Assembly: GCF_000417875.1 (NCBI RefSeq)
Contig: NW_006920879.1
Coordinates: 625,211 to 689,210, forward strand
Source: Pseudozyma flocculosa PF-1
Lineage: Eukaryota; Basidiomycota; Ustilaginomycetes; Ustilaginales; Ustilaginaceae
DNA: 64,000 nt
Direction of reading: 5' to 3'
The translations under genes and the position numbers were made by a program. Below are positions 28,306-29,840 of the stretch, in pieces. Numbering within the stretch: the first letter of the stretch is position 1; the number at the start of each line of letters is the position of its first letter. The notes under the pieces were generated by a model, which saw only the letters and a list, made by a program, of their open reading frames with translations, was not told the origin of the DNA and did not search any database.

Positions 28306-29538
28306 TCAGAGGATGTTGCAGCGTGACTTCTTCTTGCGCTCTTTCCCGCTCGTCGTGCCTTCCCGCTGCTCCCGGATCATGCGGACCACCGTGTAGTACG
28401 CCCGCTCGACGTTGACGCACGTCTTTGCGCTCGACTCGACAAACTTGCAGCCGAGCCGGTTGGCCAGCGCCTGCCCCTCTTCTCGCGAGACCTCCCTCTC
28501 GTTGACCTTGTCGCATTTGTTGCCCACCAACATGATCGGCACCGTGTGTGGTTCTTGGTCCTTGACCCGGCTGGCGGCAGCGACGCGGGCGGGTTCATAA
28601 GGGGCGAGGTGGTCAGCAGGATGCTCGCGACATCGGTGGCCAGGCGGACCTCGGCAGCAGAGGGCTGGACATGCATGGCACTTACGAAATCTGGCTTCGG
28701 AACCGCTCCACGCGCTCAAAGGTGGCTCTTGCCGAGATCGAGTAGACCAGCAGGAAGCCCTCGCCCTCGCGGATCCACTGGTCTCGCAACGCAGTGTACT
28801 CCTCTACAGGCGGCGCAGTGGGCACAAGGGGTGTCAAGATCGAGCGAATCAGCACACGTTCAAAGCCAGGCGGCGGTGGGACGAGGCGCCAGGCAGGCGA
28901 AGGCAAACGCACCTTGCCCTGCCGTGTCGAGAACCTCGAGCATGCACGGCTGGTCATCGATAACGGTCTGCTTTCGGTAGGAGTCCTCGATCGTTGGATC
29001 GTACGTCTGGAAAGGCGTGGCGAAGGTGACGAAGGTGGCGAAAGGTGGTGCAGGAGTCAGCATCGAACCTCGTCGTGAATCGGCAGTGCGGGACCCCAAC
29101 GGCATCGACTCACTTCTGATCAGCAGCGAAAGAGGCCAGGACAACGAGAAAGGCGCCGGGATCAAAGAGGTGGTCAGCGTGATGTGTGGTGCGTCGACAT
29201 CGGCCGGGGCAGCGCACACGCACCAACGAAGTGATTGAGACACAACTGCGGGTGCGAGTGTACGAGGGGCAACGGAAGGAAGCAGATCTCGTGTCAGCCT
29301 ATCGCAACGCATCTCGACGCCGCTGCGAGCACCATCGAGACGCCGAGTTTCCAGGTCGGTGGCAAGATTGGAGGCACGCGCGAACGGACCGCGGATGGAG
29401 TAAAAGGCCGCTTTCTGGCGTCGACGAGGACCTCGGGCAGATCATCAGGATCGGACTCACCTGGATTGTGAGCGCCGTCTTGCCAACACCGCCATCTCCC
29501 AGAACCACCAGCTTGTAGATCATCATCTTGCCGCTCAT
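28306..29538 (-). CDS. RAS: Ras family small GTPase with a 2-nt micro-exon
   Basis: Membrane GTPase that relays growth signals; fungal Ras proteins feed cAMP and MAPK pathways. Exons: 29538-29461, 29245-29224 (22 nt), 29115-29114 (2 nt), 29006-28913, 28803-28686 and 28570-28306; 192 residues. The P-loop GDGGVGKT is at 14-21, the effector YDPTIEDSY at 36-44, switch II DTAGQEEY from 61, then NKCD and SSAKT; the CaaX box CNIL is preceded by basic [23 protein letters not shown] resembles basidiomycete Ras. Exon 2 ends with one base of codon 34, and the next obvious acceptor (CCAG before ACGTACGAT) starts in frame with Thr35, leaving two bases missing. AA at 29115-29114, flanked by CAG and GTGAGT, supplies GAA (Glu), as in the usual VETYDP. 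Gene length is then divisible by three. See findings. Confidence 0.93.
29114..29115 (-). other. 2-nt micro-exon of RAS (predicted)
   Basis: On the minus strand the sequence reads GATCAG-AA-GTGAGT: a strong acceptor after a long pyrimidine-rich tract, two exonic bases, then a consensus donor. Flanking introns are 108 and 107 nt, matching other introns here. It completes codon 34 as GAA. Prediction only; no transcript data. Confidence 0.75.
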
Positions 29539-29760
29539 GTTGGCGAGGTAGTCCTCTGCGCAGCCGGCAGGTCGTGTCCGCTAGGAGCAGGGTAGTTGGG
29601 CCGATGCTAGAGGCAAGAGGCGAACAGCGATCGCGCGGTGCTGTGCTGTCGGGGACAGTCGAGACGGCGACGTGCGAAGGTGTCTGCCTGATCGACGGGC
29701 GCTTGCGGGTCGGTGAGGAGCGACGCCGGGCTGCTTCAGGCTGGAGGTTTCGATTGGAGG

Positions 29761-29840
29761 AGGCCTCGGTCGAAGCGTGGAGGATGAGGCGCGATGGAGG
29801 AGGCCTCGGTCGAAGCGTGGAGGATGAGGCGCGATGGAGG
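29761..29840. repeat. perfect 40-bp tandem duplication
   Basis: Two adjacent identical 40-bp copies (29761-29800 and 29801-29840), starting AGGCCTCGGT and ending GCGATGGAGG, about 220-300 bp upstream of the RAS start codon. Recent duplication or assembly duplication. Confidence 0.97.

Follow-up and report, generated by a model that had tools for sequence, protein, structure and literature searches.

Ras2 Gene Structure and Identity

The Ras2 gene of Pseudozyma flocculosa PF-1 raises the question of how a reading frame is carried across the edge of the effector region, where the second exon ends one base into codon 34 and the following coding exon starts in phase 0. The gene lies on the minus strand of a 64,000-nt stretch of DNA, referred to here as the window, and it very probably holds a constitutive 2-nt exon, AA, located between two ordinary GT-AG introns. 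The gene model consists of the following features, with positions counted along the window:

28306 to 29538, minus strand: Ras2 gene from ATG to stop, with six exons including the 2-nt exon, modelled from the splicing script, Pfam and own-genome search
29461 to 29538, minus strand: exon 1, 26 residues, ending in phase 0, with the ATG at 29538
29246 to 29460, minus strand: intron 1, 215 nt, GTGAGT...CAG, with CTGAC 49 nt before its end
29224 to 29245, minus strand: exon 2, 22 nt, TTG TGT CTC AAT CAC TTC GTT G, encoding LCLNHFV and the first base of codon 34
29116 to 29223, minus strand: intron 2, 108 nt, phase 1, GTGCGT...GATCAG, with CTGAC 59 nt before its end
29114 to 29115, minus strand: predicted 2-nt exon AA, which with the G of exon 2 would form GAA, Glu34
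29007 to 29113, minus strand: intron 3, 107 nt, phase 0, GTGAGT...TTCCAG, with CTGAC 51 nt before its end
28913 to 29006, minus strand: exon 4, with first codons ACG TAC GAT
28804 to 28912, minus strand: intron 4, 109 nt, GTGCGT...TAG, with CTGAT 46 nt before its end, an ordinary intron for comparison
28686 to 28803, minus strand: exon 5
28571 to 28685, minus strand: intron 5, 115 nt, GTAAGT...CAG, with CTGAC 43 nt before its end, an ordinary intron for comparison
28306 to 28570, minus strand: exon 6, with C-terminal CaaX-like CNIL and the stop, which ends at 28306

The phase mismatch between exon 2 and the next coding exon had been noticed in the original prediction, which proposed splicing in AA from a minus-strand GATCAG-AA-GTGAGT at 29115-29114; the coordinates all check, and the motif is present at that position. 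Inclusion of AA makes the coding sequence divisible by three, as had been claimed, with 579 nt corresponding to 192 residues and a stop, and the two introns expected from it, of 108 and 107 nt, are borne out, each with a GT donor, CTGAC and CAG. The branch-site spacing of these flanking introns (59 and 51 nt) is like that of the other introns (49, 46 and 43 nt), and the GTGCGT donor of intron 2 is also that of intron 4. A loose branch-site pattern has extra matches at 200 nt in intron 1, 5 nt in intron 2 and 28 nt in intron 5; that in intron 2 is a CTGAT 5 nt from the end, too near the AG.

The predicted product contains a Ras domain (PF00071, 188.7 bits, residues 9-171) and shares 96% identity with U. 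maydis Ras2 in the protein search and 98% identity in alignment with the Violaceomyces palustris protein P0005. The C-terminal CNIL is called CaaX-like on the basis of the CaaX box rule. A search of the organism's own 23-Mb, 33-contig assembly found a single Ras2 locus, and since only one locus was found and the other exons are intact, the gene is not an obvious pseudogene. Intron 1 (29246-29460), at 215 nt, is about twice the length of the other introns, and neither the frame nor the protein alignment needs an exon inside it. A 40-bp tandem repeat of 2.2 copies with 100% matches is located at 29755-29840, approximately 220 bp ahead of the ATG of Ras2.

Reading Frame at Codon 34

Direct joining of exon 2 to exon 4, with AA skipped, loses the frame and ends the product at residue 50, so inclusion of AA is needed for full Ras2. 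Single-intron solutions, as distinct from twin introns, were enumerated using GT or GC donors from -11 to +59 around the end of exon 2 and AG acceptors no further than 12 bases inside exon 4. This enumeration returned 21 in-frame solutions, none of which gives VETYDP: one deletes VE, one changes E to G, and the rest insert residues, from 2 to 46 across the nine solutions measured, which include the shortest and the longest. When the outer splice sites are kept constant, three of the possible micro-exons of 1-30 nt preserve the frame, and VETYDP is obtained from AA only. These results support the 2-nt exon as the only solution found that restores both the frame and the conserved residue.

The residue at codon 34 is Glu in 112 of 115 script-matched homologues, the others having Asp (two) or Lys (one). 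The Glu had been predicted from the VETYDP said to be usual in fungal Ras; this expectation is correct for Ras2-type proteins but not for the Ras1 paralogue, which reads VDEYDP. In an alignment with KRAS, Glu34 pairs with the Asp of VDEYDP, which is Asp30 in the usual Ras numbering, and adjoins switch I.

A single 215-nt GC-AG intron with the donor GT|GCGTGT would also keep the frame, giving Gly34 (VGTYDP). The consensus for such introns is AG|GCAAGT, and the donor is a poor match to it past the GC. The product, HF(V/I/L)GTYDP, is found in 0 of 191 listed homologues, a list that pools the top 120 hits from each of three protein searches, as 90% cluster representatives and not species counts, a few of which are not Ras2 (e.g., the fish protein P0154). 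A GC-AG intron would also leave the internal CAG|AA|GTGAGT and a second branch site without explanation, and we regard it as extremely unlikely.

The frame would likewise be kept by a [D1,2] spliceosomal twin intron, in which an internal intron at 29223-29113 is taken out first and removal of the external intron then brings GTT and ACG together, giving HFVTYDP with Glu34 alone dropped. The internal intron would be 111 nt long and end in CAGAAG, and the split after the first G of the donor would rebuild G|TGAGT (GTGAGT); passages of PMC5639578 document spliceosomal twin introns in fungi. As described in those passages, the two introns are adjacent and spliced consecutively, like the Ras2 pair, whereas nothing exonic is left between the parts of a twin intron and Ras2 keeps 2 nt on the favoured reading. 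Use of the internal intron requires an AAG acceptor three bases past a CAG, however, and the CAG comes first; HF(V/I/L)TYDP is found in 0 of the 191 listed homologues, and the dropped residue is the Glu of 112 of the 115 matched ones. A twin intron is therefore considered very unlikely, and the AA exon is preferred.

Occurrence of the Splice Motif

The pattern YAG-AR-GTRNGT occurs once in the window, counting both strands, and this occurrence is at the predicted exon. With 0.42 occurrences expected in 64 kb and at least one in 35 of 100 shuffled windows, a window-wide match is not rare, and thus the position of the match is telling and its count is not. When the 217-nt stretch holding the exon was dinucleotide-shuffled 20,000 times with the splice sites at its ends fixed, the same pattern was never obtained (0/20,000), while the looser YAG-AR-GT appeared in 22 shuffles and YAG-NN-GTRNGT in 17, of which 5 and 4, respectively, had two branch sites; all of these patterns were picked after the site was seen.

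Predicted Order of Intron Removal

Each of the two flanking introns is short and complete, and would be recognised alone by intron definition. The two would be removed in sequence, as there is hardly room for two spliceosomes 2 nt apart, and either order of removal would work, the base before AA being G whether it comes from the AG or from the end of exon 2. The AA exon would be constitutive because skipping destroys the frame. Passages of PMC4674806 argue for sequential intron removal at the 1-nt exon of Arabidopsis APC11. Comparison with shuffled sequences found no unusual RNA folding of the intron pair (z = +1.29), and no structural aid is claimed; the window has no Rfam matches at gathering thresholds. 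A function that hinges on two bases would offer a clean test of how the spliceosome handles an exon too small to define.

Comparison with Paralogues and Known Small Exons

In the Ras1 paralogue of the same genome (L010), an intron lies at TIE|DSY and none at VDEYDP, and the Rap1/Rsr1-like gene (L017) reads through the junction without an intron. The absence of an intron there from both genes indicates that the 2-nt exon is not common to these paralogues.

Several known systems resemble the Ras2 exon in part. The 1-nt exon of CYP621A in Fusarium, as presented in passages of PMC12940212, is likewise an ultra-small exon of a fungal gene, with phase-mismatched neighbours and a conserved motif, that was missed by gene models; it differs in being a single nucleotide known from RNA reads in one P450 subfamily, whereas the predicted Ras2 exon has two nucleotides, with indirect signs of it in several phyla. 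The same passages call the CYP621A exon the first of its size in a fungal gene and cite exons of 2-5 bp in Arabidopsis, Drosophila and human, which, as compared through this citing paper only, fall in the same size class as the Ras2 AA in other organisms. The 1-nt exons of plant APC11 and VPS55 (passages of PMC4674806 and PMC8831610) are tiny like the Ras2 AA, and are conserved and often mis-annotated, as the AA may also be; unlike it they are single nucleotides in other genes, in plants, and validated by cDNA. A micro-exon has also been described in another fungal gene, Xlr2 of Trichoderma virens, and is presented there as a glucose-dependent switch (PMC11121469), in contrast to the inclusion of the Ras2 AA, which would be constitutive.

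No published 2-nt exon in a fungal Ras was found in the open-licence literature searched. The kind of exon is already known, from examples of 1 to 5 nt; what is new is its apparent depth of conservation, and its place.

Ras2 Proteins at the Junction

Among the 191 listed homologues, 121 are intact at the junction, 68 are altered and two double-domain fusions (P0011 and P0071) were set aside, with P0162, P0175, P0180, P0188 and P0191 sorted as intact by eye; the second protein query was without the N-terminus, and the list is thereby enriched for altered N-termini. The best 120 of the full-length search alone contain 30 altered proteins. A stricter pattern agrees with the sorting, giving 122 intact proteins (P0071 counted) and 68 altered, with P0011 in neither group. 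An intact protein record may come from a gene with both introns, one or none.

The 68 altered proteins fall into several kinds: 11 are without VE (HF|TYDP), nine are without LCLNHFVE (TIQ|TYDP), eight break off after VGK, 15 run on or change past HF, two start at TYDP, 15 have unrelated sequence upstream, and eight are missing TYDP itself. The altered rows P0143 and P0153 are partial records simply beginning at TYDP. The HF|TYDP and TIQ|TYDP classes both agree with the predicted 2-nt exon; for the latter, exon 2 and AA together make 24 nt in the gene of the window, and dropping both keeps the frame. The altered proteins represent the Basidiomycota and most of the early-diverging groups of fungi; they belong to Ustilaginomycotina (3), Pucciniomycotina (11), Mucoromycotina-type (14), Calcarisporiella (2), Mortierella-type (12), Glomeromycotina (11), Zoopagomycota and Basidiobolus (5), chytrids (8) and Piromyces (1), with one unnamed. 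No altered ascomycete Ras2 is found among the 191 listed, the listed ascomycetes being intact. One further record, P0010, is filed under the fern Adiantum nelumboides and is 90% identical to the smut-type Ras2 of the window; the fern assembly is probably contaminated by a fungus.

Insertions and deletions in the best 120 homologues of the full-length search, counted in 6-residue bins, number 28 at residues 30-35 and seven at residues 24-29. Other bins from 6 to 107 hold at most four each, and those from 120 on at most two, while the bins 108-113 (99) and 114-119 (12) reflect a two-residue length difference between the query and most listed proteins. There is no peak at residues 65 and 105, the positions of window-gene introns, which serves as a partial control, introns there being known for the window gene only.

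Some records permit a closer comparison. P0005 of V. palustris, also a member of the Ustilaginomycotina, is annotated without exactly Val-Glu at this position. Two proteins of R. irregularis, P0027 and P0051, show no mismatch over 205 aligned residues, their sole difference being VE, and a second pair, P0017 and P0129 of Rhizophlyctis rosea, share 176 of 179 residues and differ by the eight residues LCLNHFVE. A gene finder unable to place a 2-nt exon must break the protein at the junction, and the garbling at this one place of public Ras2 records from many fungal groups points to a tiny exon that is old and widespread and that gene finders often overlook.

These records also bear on a possible error of 2 bp in the assembly, or a real deletion of that size, just before ACGTACGAT, with a single intron in the gene. 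Such a loss would account for the frame gap too; however, it gives no reason for an acceptor, AA, a donor and a second branch site in mid-stretch, nor for V. palustris and many other fungi being altered at the same junction, and we give it hardly any credence. Both this deletion and the GC donor, the alternatives named in the original prediction, fit worse than the 2-nt exon.

The annotation of V. palustris corresponds to a donor inside the Val codon (TTC|GTTGGT), which deletes Val-Glu. This splicing is in frame, and 11 of the 191 listed public proteins are annotated in this way. The donor consensus is GTRNGT, however, by which GTTGGT is weaker than the adjoining GTGCGT, and the two residues removed adjoin switch I; the occurrence in R. 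irregularis of both versions of an otherwise identical protein indicates a prediction artefact. A donor inside the Val codon is considered exceedingly improbable. If the exon is as widespread as these records suggest, many public Ras2 proteins would carry an error at the margin of the effector region, affecting structure prediction, phylogenies and experiments, and a simple gene-model check at the junction would reveal the wrong records.

Possible Age and Distribution of the Exon

It appears fairly probable from the protein records that the ancestral fungal Ras2 had a 2-nt exon (A-A or A-G, completing the Glu codon), kept in parts of Basidiomycota, Mucoromycota, Mortierellomycota, Glomeromycota, Zoopagomycota and Chytridiomycota at least, and causing systematic errors in the records. 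If true, the Ras2 AA would be among the smallest deeply conserved exons known. With less certainty, the phase-1 and phase-0 introns may both be old, which would date the exon to no later than the split of several fungal phyla, with one or both introns since lost in some lineages. The pattern could have arisen by intron gain after some of the splits or by repeated intron loss, with repeated loss more likely. If the exon is as old as the proteins suggest, many lineages would be available for comparing its retention with intron loss. Searches for Ras2 DNA of relatives matched five stretches in viral contigs and 70 in genome contigs, of which none was confirmed.

Residues Read through the Junction

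Seven listed proteins continue as FVG, and six of these (Thamnocephalis, Calcarisporiella, Mucor, Linnemannia and two Powellomyces) then agree with G|GT-RNG-T, as expected of a GTRNGT donor placed after the first base of codon 34, the misfit being Actinomortierella (GSP); the background for this fit is 104 among 2516 G-x-y triplets of these proteins. When all 21 proteins that run on or change past LCLNHF are taken together, six fit the phase-1 donor, two a phase-0 donor and 13 neither. The Microbotryum proteins P0069 and P0152 read IEVS, as if Glu were completed in exon 2 with a phase-0 intron only, and the Microbotryum lineage may be without the 2-nt exon.

At the acceptor, P0096, P0124, P0130, P0137 and P0140, which have foreign sequence upstream, carry Ala, Thr or Val ahead of E|TYDP, the residues expected from (C/T)AG|AA. 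This acceptor test is a weak one, as seven of the 20 residues would pass: all seven proteins examined fit it, P0158 among them and likewise the fusion P0011, whose residue there is natural Ras sequence. P0049 has CRGKL upstream of LISQ|TYDP, a reading that would allow TGCAG|AG|GTAAG followed by CAG|AC, as judged from the protein. In P0018 the region is apparently one exon, judging from the translated ends.

In eight proteins (P0161, P0163, P0168, P0171, P0182, P0183, P0088 and P0117), TYDP before DSYRK is also lost. Microbotryomycetes and some Mucorales may thus have an additional phase-0 intron at TIE|DSY, where Ras1 of the window genome is also interrupted, and a 21-nt exon encoding TYDPTIE. 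The Ras2 of Phenoliferia, P0158, reads HFIVLAVRAE|TYDP, and might represent another form of the junction in Pucciniomycotina.
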